Below are positions 3,306 to 38,016 of a stretch of 38,070 nucleotides of DNA, in pieces. Made by a program: the position numbers and the translations under genes. Every line of letters begins with the position of its first letter. Position 1 is the stretch's first letter. The notes under the pieces are model-generated. The model made no database searches, was not told where the DNA came from, and saw only the letters and a program-made list of their open reading frames with translations. The DNA is from Candidatus Martarchaeota archaeon (lineage in GTDB: Archaea; Thermoproteota; Thermoprotei_A; Marsarchaeales; Marsarchaeaceae): the NCBI GenBank assembly GCA_023487445.1, contig JAMDBQ010000018.1:37200-75269 (forward strand), read 5' to 3'.

Positions 3306-3858
3306 CCGGTAGCTATTAATCTAACATGGTGCCCGCGCATATGGGTCAACTTTGAAGGAATATCGGAGTTGACGATGCTAGATTTCAACTAGGAACATAG
3401 CTCAAGCACGCTGGACAGGGAGACGTCTCCAAAGCATTGTCAAGGCCAGTTTAGACACTGCCCTCGGCCCCATGTGGTTGGGTGCCATGCAACACACCCG
3501 CGATTTGGCGGACCCTGCGTCCTAAAATGACTAAATTGTAATGGGTCCTACCAACCAGTGCCGCATCTAAACCTCGTATCCAGTATGTCCCATCTAATAC
3601 CTTTTCGAAGCACCTCTTCAGGGGATAAAGGGGGTATACCACAAGCCCAATGTTCAAAAGCGGGTTGTGTGCCCAATACACTGAGCTTTCTCTCTTAACA
3701 GTCCTACGGCGCCTGGGTCAGAATTATCCATAGAGAATGCCTGGTACACATAGTATGGGGATCACAAAAGATTGGGGAAATGCTTTGCCCCTGCGGAACA
3801 ACAAATGAGTCAAATACTGGAAGAATACATGGCTTAAGCATAAGTTTATTATCATCGT

Positions 3859-16577: not shown

Positions 16578-18545
16578 GTGTGGGTGCTGGTAGTGTCGGG
16601 TTCCCAGAACAGGAGGCTTGCTGCGGTGATGTTCACAGACATAGTGGGCTACACCGCTCTGACTCAGCTGGACGAAGCCCAGTCTCTACGTGTATTGGAT
16701 AGGCATAACAGGCTGCTTCGTCCGGTTTTCACCAAGTTCAAGGGGAGAGAAGTTAAGACGATCGGCGACTCATTCCTAGTTGAATTCGAAAGTGCGCTGG
16801 ACGCCGTAAACTGCGCTATCGAAATTCAGCGGCTCCTCAACGATTACAACGCGTCATTGGGAGAGGAGTGGAGGATAATTCTGAGGATAGGCATACACCT
16901 TGGAGACGTGGTGGACTCTCAGGGCGATATTCTCGGGGACACTGTGAATATCTCATCCCGGATCCAGCCGCTCAGCCAGCCAGGTGGAGTGTGCGTATCC
17001 GGCCAAGTATATGATCAGGTAAGAAACAAAATACGCGCGCCAATGGTTAAGCTGGAGCCAAGGCAGCTTAAAGGCGTAAACTCGCAGGTTGATGTGTACA
17101 AAATAGTGATGCCTTGGGAGAACTATGATTTTGTCGAGGGGGCGCCACCTGCAGAGGCGGCTCGGCAGATGAGTAACCGGGTGGCCGTTCTTCCATTCAT
17201 CAACATGAGCCCGAACCCAGACGACGAATACTTTGCGGACGGAATCACAGAGGAGCTGATCGACAGGCTCGCACACGTAAGCGGCTTGGAAGTTATTGCT
17301 CGAACGTCCATCATGACATACAAGGGCGAGAAGAAGAAGGCGTCGCAGGTTGGTCAGGAGCTGAAAGTGGGATTCTTGGTTGAAGGTAGTGTCAGGAAAG
17401 TGGCCAACAGGGTGAGGGTAACTGTTCAGCTGATCAACACCGTAACCGAAGCCCACATCTGGTCGGAACACTACGACGGCACACTGGACGACATCTTCGC
17501 GGTACAGGACGAAATCACTCAAAGAGTGGTTTCGGAGCTGCGAGTCAAGCTCTCGGCCAGGGAAAGAATCGCGATCGCCAAGAAACCCACTCAGGATATG
17601 GAGGCTTACACCTACTATCTGCAGGGCTCGCAGCTAATTCATAGGCTTGAGGAAGAGCCTAACAGGGAGGCCCTCAAACTGTTTTTGAACGCGACCCAAA
17701 GAGATCCAAACTACGCAGCCGCCTACGCGGGTATCAGCTTTTCCTATAGCTTTCTCGGTTTACACGGGTATATTACGTTTGCCGAAGCCATCGAGAAGGG
17801 CAGACTTGCGGCAATGAAGGCTATTCAACTCGACCAGGACCTTGCCATGTCTCACGCCGCTATGGCGCTAGTCATGTTTATGGCTGACGAATGGGAGAGC
17901 ATCCAAGAGATTAGGAGGACGATTGAACTCGACCCGAACTATTCCGTGGGATACGGGATGCTTGGCGTCTGGTCTACCAGCGTGGGAAACATTCAGGAGG
18001 CCGTGGCCGCGCTGGAGAAGGCGTACGCCCTGGACCCCCTCAACCCGGAATGGGTGACCACGCTAGGAGTAGTCTATTACTACGCTGGGCAAGAGAAGAA
18101 AGCCTTGGACCACTGGAAGAGGACGATGCCTCTTGAGCCGTATCGCACACACGCGGCTCTTTCCATGTACTACATGGGTAAAGGCGAGTACAAGGATGCC
18201 GACAAGGAGGTCAAAGAGCTAGAGCATCTGGGGCCGAGTCTAATCGACACGCTCTTCTGCAAAGGGGTTTTGGCTGCGCTCGCGGGAGATCAGGACACTG
18301 CCCGGGAGATGATATCCAGACTCGAAAAAATGCAGAACACCGCTTTTAGCAGGGGCACGATACATCTGGCAATGGGGGAAAAGGAAAAGTTCTTCGAACT
18401 CATGTTTAGGTCGGCTCAGGAACACACGATTAACATCTCGCTTATTCGATGGGACCCGTTGTTCGCGGATGCCAGAACAGACCCCCGGATAAAAGAACTT
18501 CTGAGCAGATCAGCCACCACCTTGGGTCTTCAGTTCACCTCGTAA
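16578..18545 (+). CDS. Class III adenylate/guanylate cyclase fused to TolB-like and TPR regions
   Basis: RRLAAVMFTDIVGYTALTQLDEAQ, VKTIGDSFLVEFESALDAV, RIGIHLGDVVDSQGDILGDTVNISSRIQPLSQPGGVCVS; then VAVLPFINMSPNPDDEYFADGITEELIDRLAHVSGLEVIARTS and TPR-like helices. Actual start may be a GTG slightly downstream. Confidence 0.92.
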   Translation: MWVLVVSGSQNRRLAAVMFTDIVGYTALTQLDEAQSLRVLDRHNRLLRPVFTKFKGREVKTIGDSFLVEFESALDAVNCAIEIQRLLNDYNASLGEEWRIILRIGIHLGDVVDSQGDILGDTVNISSRIQPLSQPGGVCVSGQVYDQVRNKIRAPMVKLEPRQLKGVNSQVDVYKIVMPWENYDFVEGAPPAEAARQMSNRVAVLPFINMSPNPDDEYFADGITEELIDRLAHVSGLEVIARTSIMTYKGEKKKASQVGQELKVGFLVEGSVRKVANRVRVTVQLINTVTEAHIWSEHYDGTLDDIFAVQDEITQRVVSELRVKLSARERIAIAKKPTQDMEAYTYYLQGSQLIHRLEEEPNREALKLFLNATQRDPNYAAAYAGISFSYSFLGLHGYITFAEAIEKGRLAAMKAIQLDQDLAMSHAAMALVMFMADEWESIQEIRRTIELDPNYSVGYGMLGVWSTSVGNIQEAVAALEKAYALDPLNPEWVTTLGVVYYYAGQEKKALDHWKRTMPLEPYRTHAALSMYYMGKGEYKDADKEVKELEHLGPSLIDTLFCKGVLAALAGDQDTAREMISRLEKMQNTAFSRGTIHLAMGEKEKFFELMFRSAQEHTINISLIRWDPLFADARTDPRIKELLSRSATTLGLQFTS

Positions 18546-32095: not shown

Positions 32096-33112
32096 TCAAC
32101 CTTTAAGTCTAACTGATTTTTCCATGTTAGGCGCGTTTCCCCCGCGGGGGTTCGCGAGCCATATACTCGCCATGGCCGCCGCAAGAGATGGAAGCAAAAT
32201 GTAGGTTGTGACAGTCTCGGAGGCGTAGACAAAACCGGTGATGATCAGCAGTAACCCGGTTAAACCCGCGAAGGTGGTGTTTTGACCGCCCCGCATTGCC
32301 AACAGAAAAAGAGCGGTTATAAATGAAGCTATACCCGCGAAAACAACCAAGGGCACCAAGGTGTCGGTGACCCCCAGAAATCCAAAGTCATAAATGATTA
32401 TGGTTCCCAGAACTATAGATGACCCGGGAAACACGTTTGCCATAACAGCATACTCGATTGCCACCCCCACCAACAGGGCGGCTACGTAACCCCATCTGAT
32501 ACCACCCTTTTTCCCCAGTATCCGGTAACCACCCGCGGCCGCAAACAGCAGACCCCCCAGCGTCCCCGCATAGGGTTCTGCGGCTGCGCTGAAGCCGCCG
32601 AGAGTGGACCAGCCTTCGCCGCCGAAGTTTGCGGTTACTATGTTACCTACGAGGAACAGGATTCCCAGAAGCTCGGTTAGAAGCATCACCGCCAGGGCTA
32701 ACCCCATTAGATCTCTGTGTTGTAAAACGACCAGGGCTGCGAATATAACCGAACACGTAACTAGACCAAGAAGGATGAGGCTCTCACCAGCTGAGGAGGA
32801 TTGAAATATTGAGTTAATCCCTTCCTGGACGTGCTGAACATCCATTGCAACAGCTACCACTGCTCCCAGAGCCGACGCGTAGAGTGACGCCGTAGCGAGA
32901 AGTCGAGTGCTGGGCTTCAAAATTCCCGAGGCTAAAAGCGCCGCGGGGGCGAGCAAGGTGAGTACCCCAAACGAGTATCCTCCTATTACGTAGAACGCCC
33001 TGATAGCCGGCGAAACCTCTGCTATGTTCACTCCTGCACTGCCAAGCGGAAGAACCGCAGCCAGAAACTCTCTGTTGAAAAACGCTTCAACGAACGCGGT
33101 CAGGCATACCAT
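32096..33112 (-). CDS. Polytopic membrane protein, CbsB-like by position
   Basis: 338 aa with about 9-10 hydrophobic helices, directly downstream of the CbsA-like gene. Family assignment is contextual. Confidence 0.55.
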   Translation of the reverse strand: MVCLTAFVEAFFNREFLAAVLPLGSAGVNIAEVSPAIRAFYVIGGYSFGVLTLLAPAALLASGILKPSTRLLATASLYASALGAVVAVAMDVQHVQEGINSIFQSSSAGESLILLGLVTCSVIFAALVVLQHRDLMGLALAVMLLTELLGILFLVGNIVTANFGGEGWSTLGGFSAAAEPYAGTLGGLLFAAAGGYRILGKKGGIRWGYVAALLVGVAIEYAVMANVFPGSSIVLGTIIIYDFGFLGVTDTLVPLVVFAGIASFITALFLLAMRGGQNTTFAGLTGLLLIITGFVYASETVTTYILLPSLAAAMASIWLANPRGGNAPNMEKSVRLKG

Positions 33113-33168: not shown

Positions 33169-34827
33169 CTAGATAAACCTCTTCAAGCCGTACGCCCCCA
33201 GCCCTAGAAGCATAGGTAGGATACCCAAGTATTGCTGAATGCCAAGGGGACCGGACGCGGAGCTGGGTGGCTGAATGTACACGTTCCACCACAGCGATAT
33301 AGACTTGAAGTCAACAGATTCTCCTATAGCTCCTTGGAACCAAGCGAACGCGACGTGGTATGTTCCACCGGGGGCTAACTGGATCTGGTAGTGTGATTCA
33401 CCCTGGCCGTCCGACACACCCACTGTACTGAAGGTTCTCGCGTACTCCAAGGTGAGGTAGGTCTGGCCGTTGGGGGCAGTCGCCAAAGTGTCGCCTGTAG
33501 CAACCACCGAGGGGTTCCACAACTCGCTGGGAGTGTATTGTCCCTGAAGCCACTGCCAGTTGGTTATACTGGGGTTGTTGAGTGCGGGAAAAGTCGTAAC
33601 GAAGGGTATACCGCCGAGATAGTAGATTGAGGATCCGTTAACGTACATGTCGGCGACGAGTCCCTGGTGGGGGAGATACCCCAAGTTGAGCGGGTCCTTG
33701 TAGCCGGGGTAGTGAGTGTAATTCGCCATGGTCCAAGATATTCCCCCGGGCAGACCCATGAATCCTGGGAGATTCGCCAGAATGCCGGCGTAACCAGCGT
33801 CCAAGGTGTTGTTGGATCTTGGGTTACTGTTCCAGTGCCAAACCTCTACTGCCCCCGCGGAGAATGCGCCGCTCGTGCCCAGAACCATGTGGGGAGTGTA
33901 TGCAACCTTGAACCAGTCGTTGGGGACGCCGCCAAGGTCCCACATTACGGCTGCTCTGAGCGGATATAGATAGGTTGAGTTGTGGAAGAGGTCCACATAC
34001 TCCCCCGTATCCTCAGGGTAGAAGAGGTTGTATGCAGCCTGAGGCCAGATGGAGTTGTTGATACCGTAGGATAGTATTTGACTTGGAGAGGTTATATCCA
34101 CCGTGCCAACCGACGGAATGTTGGCGGATATGTCAAGTGATGTGATCTGAATCGGGGCACCACCGTTGAGGGGGTTGCCGTATTGGTCGATAGCGCCGCT
34201 TACCCACGCCGTTAACGTACCGTGGCTCTTAGTCACATATATCTGCACTGGGTTACCCATGGTTTCACCTGGCGGATACGATATTTCGTTTTGCTGGTAG
34301 CTAATCGGAACACTTTTGACCGTTGTAGTCGACTGATCATGTGTAGAATAGGTTATATTCACGAAATAATTCGACGTGGGGAAGAAGTTGAACGGGGCCC
34401 AAATCCTCCCCTGGGGAGTGCGTTCACCTGACGGATTCTGATACGCCGTCTGAATCTCGCTGGGTGTTCCCAGGACCACGCCGTGCATCAAAACCATGAT
34501 ATACGGTACTCCGTCAACGTAGGTCCACGCCATTTTCACCTGAATTGACGTGGTGTGCCCTGCTATGCTTCCGGGAGCCGGAACAGTTGGCACAAGAGGC
34601 ACAGTGGTGTAGGGGATGCTTGCCCAGTACTGCTCTTGGCCAGGGTTACCCAAGCCAAGCTGAGCATTGGGGACGTAATACGCTGTCATTGTTGTGGCTG
34701 ACTGACTTGCGGCGTCCAAGGCGTTATCCAGCCCTATCGCGAGTCCTCCAACCAACAGTATGAATATGAACCCGTATACCCCTAGCCTAAGATACTTGGA
34801 GTTCTCTTTTTTGTATTCTTCACTCAT
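33169..34827 (-). CDS. CbsA / ethylbenzene-dehydrogenase-related heme-binding cytochrome-like protein
   Basis: 552 aa with N- and C-terminal TM segments; YLYPLRAAVMWDLGG and AGAVEVWHWNSNPRSN resemble EBDH-related heme domain motifs; many N-x-S/T sequons; next to oxidase genes. Confidence 0.65.
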   Translation of the reverse strand: MSEEYKKENSKYLRLGVYGFIFILLVGGLAIGLDNALDAASQSATTMTAYYVPNAQLGLGNPGQEQYWASIPYTTVPLVPTVPAPGSIAGHTTSIQVKMAWTYVDGVPYIMVLMHGVVLGTPSEIQTAYQNPSGERTPQGRIWAPFNFFPTSNYFVNITYSTHDQSTTTVKSVPISYQQNEISYPPGETMGNPVQIYVTKSHGTLTAWVSGAIDQYGNPLNGGAPIQITSLDISANIPSVGTVDITSPSQILSYGINNSIWPQAAYNLFYPEDTGEYVDLFHNSTYLYPLRAAVMWDLGGVPNDWFKVAYTPHMVLGTSGAFSAGAVEVWHWNSNPRSNNTLDAGYAGILANLPGFMGLPGGISWTMANYTHYPGYKDPLNLGYLPHQGLVADMYVNGSSIYYLGGIPFVTTFPALNNPSITNWQWLQGQYTPSELWNPSVVATGDTLATAPNGQTYLTLEYARTFSTVGVSDGQGESHYQIQLAPGGTYHVAFAWFQGAIGESVDFKSISLWWNVYIQPPSSASGPLGIQQYLGILPMLLGLGAYGLKRFI

Positions 34828-35098
34828 TTTCAGTTCCCTCCGATTCCTGAGTCATCTCAGCATCCATAATGGTTACAGGATCCTTGTGATCAGCTATGAG
34901 CAAGTGAACCGCGAAGTAAAGCACTGCTACACCCACCAGCGTAACGAACACGTTGGTTGTCACCGCCGGCTGCGAAGCAAGCACCAAGCCGTTGATGTGG
35001 TTGTGAACCACGCCGTACTTGACCTTAACAAATACCCCGGCCACCGCCAATATTAATCCGAGTACAACCAACCCCAACCCAAGAGTCCTATGATTCAC
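34820..35098 (-). CDS. Small membrane subunit of the oxidase locus
   Basis: 92 aa, two TM helices; overlaps both flanking oxidase-locus genes by 4-8 nt, implying translational coupling. Confidence 0.65.
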
Positions 35099-35778
35099 AG
35101 GGTACCACCCGCCGTGTTATTTGTCAAGTACCCTGGATCCCACTGCCCCTGCGGCATATTGCCGCCGAGGATATGCGACGCATAAGTTTGGTTATAGGTT
35201 GCGATAATTGTTCCAACCAGCCATGGGTGGCCTAAGCCGAATCCCGCGACGCCACAGTACTCCGCGCACGCCACGTGATACTCGCCCGGCTTGGTGAACA
35301 CATACACTATGTATGAATAGTATCCCGGCGCCGCCTCTGCACCGAAGTTGAACGACTTACCGCCGTATACAGCGCTCTGAACGAAGAATTCATGGAACAC
35401 ATCTACACTCGTTATAACGAACACCACCGGTTCCTCAACCGGAACCACTGTCTCGTTGACTTCGGGATCATTGTGGGGCCCAAACATCCAGTGCCACTGT
35501 TCGCCTGTTACGTAAATCGTTACATATGGGCCAACATAGCTACCCAAGGCGTGCTGCAGCGTTGTATGCACAACGTCTTCGCCAGCGTTGTTAACAGGGT
35601 TATACCCCACGTAGTCGTATTCGCTATACTGAATCTCGAACGACACCACGGCGACTATAACTAATACCAAGAATAATGCGATAACGGTGCCTCGTCGCAT
35701 AACCAGCACGACTTGTACAACATTATAAACCTTTTCGAATTCCAACGTTAGACGCTGGAATAGCGCATCCGTTCGCAC
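35095..35778 (-). CDS. coxB: Heme-copper oxidase subunit II with atypical CuA motif
   Basis: N-terminal TM then cupredoxin domain: [50 protein letters not shown]. Confidence 0.9.
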
Positions 35779-36372
35779 TCTACTTTATCTAAGGCAAGCT
35801 GTTCCAGCGTCCTGCCCGACACCAGCGTATCCGTCACAAGGCTCAGACGCCTAGTTCATCTGTTGGGGGGTTGCATTAGATAATCCACTGAGCGTATACG
35901 CTGGGGCTACACATAGCTCACCGATATGCTTTCCGCAACACGCGGAAGCCTTCAGCCAACGTTCGCTGAGCACAGCTGGCCAAGGGACGGTGTCGTCGTT
36001 GCTGCGCACGCTTCGGCGAGGCTTCGCTGAACAACGCCATTCAAACCGCGTTCGTCGATGCGAGCCACAAGTGTACACACAGGGTAGGAGGATGAGCCAT
36101 GTTCATGTCAGGAGAACGGTTCGAAGCGTCGCTAGCGCTCCCCGTTAGCTGAAAAAGGTGTTTGCATGGTTCAGCCCCGCTGTGCCCGTGAAACCTCAGC
36201 ACACTTCAACCCAAGTTACACCATCGTATCCCCAATGCGTGGCAAAGGAAATTGCTGCGCTACTGGATTTGAATACCCAAGTGAACCATCCAGTCAGGGT
36301 TTGCTTTAAACGCCTAGGCGGCCGCCTGCACCCGTCCTACCCGGCATGTATCGACGTCCGCTCAGTTTCGGT

Positions 36373-38016
36373 TTAGGATCCATTTGAAGGCTGGTCTATC
36401 GGAAGCATGGGCAAGGAGTCCTCTGAATATCCCTCCTGGCGCATGCCGTACCTCTCCATGGCAAGGGACCGCCTAAGCCAGCGTGGGTAACCCTCATACT
36501 GAATTCTCTTTCCTTTAAACGCCGTAAGTCCAAGATTCACTATGAAAGCTATCGCGGCGAACCCAGCTATCCATCCGCCAAGCGCGGCAAACTGGTAGTA
36601 GATCTGATATATTATGGGCCAGGCGACCTCCCTTCTTATCGCGCCGAAGAATCCCGCGTTGTTGAATGCGGCTATAAGCATACCCATGCCTATGTTCCAG
36701 CCCCAGAAGTGGATCTGCGCCAGCCTGTTGCTATACCATGCCCGGTTAAGTATGTGTGGGAGAACAATATACAACACCCCGAAGAATCCACCAACGGTGA
36801 ACGCAGCCATCATTATGTGTATGTGGGAGGGTATCCACAACGTGTTGTGCACGGTGGGATCAGTCGCAGGTGACGGCTGAACTGGTTCGGCGTGTATGCC
36901 TCCGATTATGTTCCATATGATGCTCGCATATATGAACATCAACGGAACATCCCATTTCAGTTTCCTAGGGTCGCCGAGCGTAATCAACTCAATCATCCAG
37001 ACTGCAGCAAACGGTATTGCTATTATTGCAGTCGAGGTCTGAGCGAATACGTCTCTGAGTATCAGCGGAACCGGGTCAGTGGCGATGTGGTGGACATAAA
37101 CAGACATACCCAGCACGAAGAGTACGGGAACCATCCACCTGAACAACCTGTAACTGAAAAGAGGTCTCCTCGCATAAACGGGGAGGATAGCGGCTACGGC
37201 CCCCATCAAGGCGTACGGACCAAAGTAGACGAGTGGGTGGTCAGCATACCAGAACAGCGCCTTCCAAACTTCCGCATTGGGGATACCGCTAAGGAATATC
37301 CCCAGCTGACCCATGGGTGACACAAGCGACCATATCACCGCGGCGAACACAGATATGTTGCCCAACGCCATCTGAATCATATCCATAACAAGAAGAGCCA
37401 CTCCTAGCGGCATTAGTCTGCCGTGGCTTCTCCAGTTAAATGAGGTGGCGATGATACTCGTCATCACCATCCATTCACCCACAACCATAGCACCGTATCC
37501 GATGAACCAGTTAGTCGCCGGCATCAGCGGATTCTGGAACACGAAAAGATACTGGTTCTGATATCCACCTGCGAGCATCATTATGATACCCGTAGAAGCT
37601 GTCCACAGTCCGAGGTTAGCCAATTTGGGATACTTGACCACCCTCGTACCAGTCAGCAAAGGAACAAAGTAGAACCCCAACCCGAACGAAATGTCGAATA
37701 CCACACCGAAAATCATCGCCATAACGTGGTCCGTCATATCCTGGAAGTAGAACACCGGAGGCACAACGTATGGGATACCTGTGTTGGTTATGCCTGACTG
37801 AGCCCTGAGCATCAGGGCGAACGATCCTCCAATCATTAGCATGAACAGTGCGACGAGAAAATGCTTCATGGCTATGCCTTGGTAGCTCTTGGAATAAATC
37901 AGCTTCATCCAGAGAGGCTTACGAGACTCTTCTTCACGTATCTTCTCGTATTCGGCGTTCCATTGCTGCATCTCTTCAAAATCGCGTTGGACCCTCTGCG
38001 TCGCCATCGAGGTCAA
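36373..38016 (-). CDS. coxA: Heme-copper oxidase subunit I
   Basis: Helix II His (MTDHVMAMIFGV), helix VI ADHPLVYF (CuB His and Tyr), helix VII VHHIATDP, helix X IPSHIHIMMAAFTVGG. Confidence 0.95.
   Translation of the reverse strand: MTSMATQRVQRDFEEMQQWNAEYEKIREEESRKPLWMKLIYSKSYQGIAMKHFLVALFMLMIGGSFALMLRAQSGITNTGIPYVVPPVFYFQDMTDHVMAMIFGVVFDISFGLGFYFVPLLTGTRVVKYPKLANLGLWTASTGIIMMLAGGYQNQYLFVFQNPLMPATNWFIGYGAMVVGEWMVMTSIIATSFNWRSHGRLMPLGVALLVMDMIQMALGNISVFAAVIWSLVSPMGQLGIFLSGIPNAEVWKALFWYADHPLVYFGPYALMGAVAAILPVYARRPLFSYRLFRWMVPVLFVLGMSVYVHHIATDPVPLILRDVFAQTSTAIIAIPFAAVWMIELITLGDPRKLKWDVPLMFIYASIIWNIIGGIHAEPVQPSPATDPTVHNTLWIPSHIHIMMAAFTVGGFFGVLYIVLPHILNRAWYSNRLAQIHFWGWNIGMGMLIAAFNNAGFFGAIRREVAWPIIYQIYYQFAALGGWIAGFAAIAFIVNLGLTAFKGKRIQYEGYPRWLRRSLAMERYGMRQEGYSEDSLPMLPIDQPSNGS

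Follow-up and report, generated by a model that had tools for sequence, protein, structure and literature searches.

Canonical CuA loops follow the pattern C-x3-C-x3-H-x2-M. A minus-strand gene near the end of the window (by window we mean the whole 38,070-nucleotide stretch of archaeal DNA that was analysed) encodes an oxidase subunit II whose loop departs from this pattern in two ways. The question is whether such a protein can still carry a CuA centre, and what the departures would mean for the oxidase to which it belongs. The preliminary description placed the unusual loop at positions 35215-35290, with five additional residues and a Leu at the position of the axial Met, and both the translation and the alignments bear this out.

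The gene is almost certainly foxB, which encodes the copper-bearing subunit II of Fox, the haem-copper oxidase with which some thermoacidophilic archaea reduce O2 when they respire on dissolved Fe(II). Its product matches the Pfam COX2 family (PF00116, E 1.2e-8) and scores 369 bits on a FoxB profile that itself includes the window protein as a row, against less than 59 bits for the next families. In a single-sequence search the protein is 63-71% identical to the FoxB proteins of the Sulfolobaceae. The enclosing open frame runs from 35095 to 35778 on the minus strand, and its longest version begins at the GTG at 35778. The ATG at 35700 is the better start, because it aligns with the starts of all of the homologues and has a TTTATAA about 26 nt upstream, which is the distance expected of a TATA-like element for a leaderless archaeal mRNA. 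The residue numbers used here (His103, Cys145, Glu147, Cys149, His158 and Leu161) count from this ATG in a protein of 201 amino acids. The features are listed in Table 1.

Table 1. Features of the foxB gene and the surrounding fox cluster in the window
Feature	Position	Strand	Evidence or remark
foxD, polytopic membrane protein	32096..33112	-	45% identity to G002, 25-31% to Sulfolobaceae
foxC, CbsA/ethylbenzene-dehydrogenase-like haem b protein	33169..34827	-	54-58% identity to Sulfolobaceae FoxC
Small ORF with two TM helices, 92 aa	34820..35098	-	Equivalent place in Sulfolobaceae fox clusters
foxB, subunit II with one N-terminal TM helix and a CuA cupredoxin domain, 201 aa	35098..35700, stop codon 35095-35097	-	63-71% identity to Sulfolobaceae FoxB
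CuA ligand loop, C145-AEY-C149-GVAGFGLG-H158-PW-L161	35218..35268	-	Translation, alignments
Codon CTG for Leu161, axial Met position	35218..35220	-	Leu in 12/14 FoxB, Met in 2/14
Five-residue insertion, approximately VAGFG	35236..35250	-	14/14 FoxB, 0/54 other subunits II; placement ambiguous by a few residues
Second FoxB-specific insertion, about 7-8 residues, after the His103 strand and before GAEAxPG	35344..35373	-	Alignments
His103, upstream His ligand in SVDVFHEFF	35392..35394	-	Invariant in 14/14 FoxB
TATA-box-like TTTATAA, about 26 nt before ATG 35700	35723..35729	-	Consensus match only
foxA, haem-copper oxidase subunit I	36373..38016	-	Haem and CuB ligand His and HPLVY Tyr conserved

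When FoxB is aligned profile to profile with 10 canonical subunits II (probability 99.8%), and by HMMER with Thermus CuA structures, five inserted residues fall between Cys149-Gly150 and Gly157-His158, and Leu161 lies opposite the axial Met. The number five given in the preliminary description is thus correct, but its choice of GVAGF is not fixed by the alignments, since the inserted residues are ambiguous within GVAGF/GLG. Three points go beyond that description: the second insertion after His103, the occurrence of Met161 in two of the 14 FoxB proteins, and the setting of foxB in a cluster for an Fe(II)-oxidation oxidase.

To learn how far the insertion extends, the FoxB profile was searched against 229 genomes of the class and 398 sampled across the phylum. 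The matches separate cleanly: 13 genomes of a single family score 388-404 bits, the window scores 369 bits and everything else scores less than 59 bits. We take this family to be the Sulfolobaceae because its FoxB sequences match two named Metallosphaera loci. All 14 proteins (13 from Sulfolobaceae plus the window) fit the consensus CAE[YF]CGxxxxGLGHxW[LM], with eight residues from the second Cys to the His where the canonical loop has three; these counts refer to related sequences and not to independent events. The 54 other subunit II ORFs of the same phylum (51 of them distinct), which include paralogues from the FoxB-bearing genomes, all fit C-x3-C-G-x2-H-x2-M, with the Met and without the insertion. 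The contrast between 14/14 and 54/54 makes the insertion more than a matter of chance. Viral contigs were also scanned for additional subunit II sequences that would deepen the alignment, and none was confirmed. A frameshift or sequencing error behind the insertion was rejected, as the insertion consists of complete codons and is common to 13 other genomes. The possibility that close homologs would have a canonical loop with Met, which would have pointed to error or degeneration, found no example among the 14 FoxB proteins. On these alignments, then, the five-residue insertion is a family trait of FoxB, neither an error nor a degeneration.

The window protein shares both insertions, the ligands and the order B-small-C-D with FoxB of Metallosphaera, S. 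tokodaii and their relatives, at the 63-71% identity noted above, whereas its host lies outside the Sulfolobaceae and it sits on a long branch (0.44-0.54). The canonical SoxH/PoxH-type subunits II encoded in Sulfolobaceae genomes have the same set of CuA Cys and His residues as FoxB; unlike FoxB, all of them have C-G-x2-H-x2-M and no insertion.

The axial position displays a different pattern. Position 161 is Leu in 12 of the 14 FoxB proteins, including that of the window, which therefore lacks the canonical H-x2-M, and is Met in the other two. Both Met cases are from one genus, g23, which is probably Sulfurisphaera, given that the description of the FoxA clade covered S. tokodaii among other organisms (PMC3512248). 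A Met-type FoxB also occurs at the named locus 'Sulfolobus sp. UBA167'. The Met occurs in the same register inside the inserted loop, and this supports the alignment of position 161. The preliminary description treated the long loop and the loss of Met as one change; the altered ligand loop that it proposed is borne out and is conserved across relatives, but within the alignment the two are separable, the insertion being invariant in FoxB and the Leu/Met choice variable. Parsimony on the trees rates an ancestral Leu with a reversion and an ancestral Met with two losses alike, and the FoxB tree with canonical outgroups has long-branch problems, so that neither ancestral state is favoured. Two FoxB proteins of one genus keep the Met, so Fox function does not depend on losing the thioether. 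One g23 genome has a decaying fox cluster (L101, G032:C1:1254500-1262500): it keeps foxC and foxD, its foxB is a C-terminal remnant (about 3495-3602), and it has no full FoxA match.

The gene order in the window is foxA, foxB, the small ORF, foxC and foxD, so foxB is linked to foxA, foxC and foxD. The order from foxB to foxD is identical in M. yellowstonensis and UBA167. The window foxA lies directly upstream of foxB on the same strand, whereas foxA of M. yellowstonensis is on the opposite strand at a distance of about 4 kb. The roughly 670 bp between foxA and foxB (35701-36372) contain no convincing gene and no Rfam match. The small ORF at 34820-35098 is conserved in place and weakly in sequence, and possibly encodes an accessory oxidase subunit. 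Aligned with PDB chains and with Fox homologues, FoxA retains the His ligands of haem and CuB as well as the cross-link Tyr of HPxVY. The Glu that A1-family enzymes have in this motif is replaced by Leu (HPLVY), which is consistent with the placement of FoxA in family B of the haem-copper oxidases (PMC3512248). In the Sulfolobaceae the fox cluster encodes a terminal oxidase for Fe(II) oxidation, and foxA-D are highly expressed on Fe(II) (PMC5461723); Fe(II)-induced expression and a role in Fe(II) oxidation are known for Fox only in that family (PMC5461723, PMC12101473). The available genome (603 kb, 71% complete) has no COX1/COX2 matches besides FoxA and FoxB, and cytochrome bd was sought there and not found. 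Elsewhere in the window are a large catalase-peroxidase-like protein (PF00141; 12691-14934, minus strand), possibly transferred from bacteria, an adenylate/guanylate cyclase domain fused to TPR repeats (16578-18545, plus strand), an architecture that looks bacterial, and, near the fox cluster, a tyrosine recombinase/integrase family protein (PF00589; 28016-29371, plus strand).

By its kinship labels the window genome belongs to the class of the Sulfolobaceae and to a different family and order. All of the other FoxB proteins are from Sulfolobaceae, and one might suppose that the contig is Sulfolobaceae DNA contaminating the bin. This is extremely improbable, and we rejected it on the position of FoxA in the tree and on the fox genes of relatives. 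The window FoxA is 70% identical to FoxA of a genome of its own family (G001) and only 54-58% identical to any Sulfolobaceae FoxA, and it falls outside the Sulfolobaceae clade (100/100). A second genome of the family (G002) has a FoxC fragment (62-70%) and a FoxD (45%) that are closer to the window than the Sulfolobaceae counterparts are. These relationships indicate that the fox cluster is native to the window lineage or was exchanged long ago. Fox homologues have been reported in Marsarchaeota (PMC10654088), which may be this same lineage. In G001 no FoxB was found; its foxA (L124, G001:C29, 14351-15970) has as neighbours a CbsA-like gene and canonical genes of the caa3 type, whose CuA loop, CYELCGAGHSYM, is normal.

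Does FoxB bind copper as other subunits II do? The canonical ligand set, His103, Cys145, Glu147 (the backbone carbonyl position), Cys149 and His158, is invariant in all 14 FoxB proteins, in agreement with the earlier statement that both Cys and the upstream His are kept. The best solved relatives by sequence are the CuA-bearing subunits II of Thermus thermophilus ba3 (1ehk, 2cua), which share with FoxB the single TM helix, C-x3-C, the His ligands and local matches at GLGH and GTI; unlike FoxB they have the canonical C-x3-C-x3-H-x2-M with its axial Met and no insertions. AlphaFold models built with four homologues are of low confidence (mean pLDDT 39.6 for the full length and 55.2 for the domain only), and the geometry cannot be read from them; Foldseek with the domain-only model (mean pLDDT 55.2) gave no match at E<=0.001. 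The CyoA family, quinol oxidase subunits II that share the cupredoxin domain, lacks CuA and its ligand set, which FoxB has in full. It is very unlikely that FoxB is a non-copper subunit of this kind and Fox a quinol oxidase, given the invariant Cys, His and Glu residues and the weaker PDB match of CyoA as compared with Thermus ba3, even though a published model has likened FoxB to CyoA (PMC10654088). The variant metal site offered in the preliminary description is unlikely for the same invariant residues. In its more specific form, a mononuclear copper or an added Fe(II) site would use FoxB-specific residues such as His142, which, like Trp160, is invariant in the 14 sequences, and FoxB does belong to an iron-oxidation system. 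We consider this improbable as well, since the complete CuA Cys/His set is retained and His142 is three residues before Cys145 on a strand, from which the side chains would be expected to point outward.

A harder question is whether the insertion matters at all. It could be a structural accident of the FoxB clade without electronic effect, a loop that bulges while His158-x2-Leu/Met161 keeps a normal geometry and Met and Leu drift neutrally. Residues 151-154 inside the insertion do vary (T/V/L, A/V, A/G and T/V/F) next to a fixed GLGH, and Met and Leu share one register. We regard this as possible but rather doubtful: every one of the 14 loops is longer by exactly five residues, even that of the window protein, which is divergent (63-71% identity), the second insertion co-occurs with the first, and none of the 54 other subunits II has Leu or the insertion. 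The fixed length and the paired insertions point to a constraint on the FoxB loops.

The explanation that we find likely as a whole is a working binuclear CuA, with enlarged loops that reshape donor docking and a Leu that raises the potential. It draws on the clean split of the profile scores, the insertion in 14/14 against 0/54, the invariant ligands, the synteny and the intact FoxA. FoxB probably has a functional binuclear CuA, presumably a mixed-valence centre that would pass electrons to FoxA. The insertions beside both His ligands would reshape the face on which the donor docks; the chances that the enlarged loops act in docking are about even. Electrons would reach FoxB from the fox chain, with haem-b FoxC/FoxD or else a blue copper protein as the donor in place of cytochrome c. 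The likeliest reading of the loop is that in the enlarged FoxB site the axial thioether would be weak or absent. With Leu161 the centre would have no weak thioether ligand, and from CuA Met mutants this loss is expected to raise the potential. A changed redox potential is plausible, and a raised one would suit a chain whose first couple is Fe(II)/Fe(III) under acidic conditions; it also fits the trend of acidophile redox proteins to more positive potentials (PMC10879576). That the Leu raises the potential and that this is adaptive we suggest only tentatively. In type-1 chimeras on a CuA scaffold, lengthening the ligand loop raised the reorganisation energy (PMC7480511), which could be a cost and counts against this explanation, as do the two FoxB proteins with Met. 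In published models, FoxC/FoxD take the electrons of Fe(II) and pass them, perhaps via a multicopper protein, to FoxAB (PMC10654088; PMC8280799). Neither sulfocyanin (PF06525) nor a Cu-oxidase_3 multicopper oxidase was found in the 71%-complete genome, which likewise counts against it. FoxB may be a natural CuA lineage with a loop lengthened by five residues, a dispensable axial Met and a high potential, reshaped to take electrons from a haem-b/cupredoxin chain that oxidises Fe(II) rather than from cytochrome c.

FoxB is an already known family, and its loop is a variant CuA within a known oxidase family. We found no description of the variant in the papers that the analysis covered, and an earlier notice elsewhere is possible.

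If the preferred reading is true, FoxB would depart, in both loop length and axial Met, from the full conservation that has been attributed to CuA coordination. With either Met or Leu present in one and the same lengthened loop, the family offers a natural mutant series for testing the roles of the axial Met and of loop length. The loop also bears on how archaea couple Fe(II) oxidation to O2 reduction, a process in which the electron donor of FoxAB is not yet agreed. Finally, the window extends FoxB to a lineage outside of the Sulfolobaceae, in which Fox may be the sole oxidase present.
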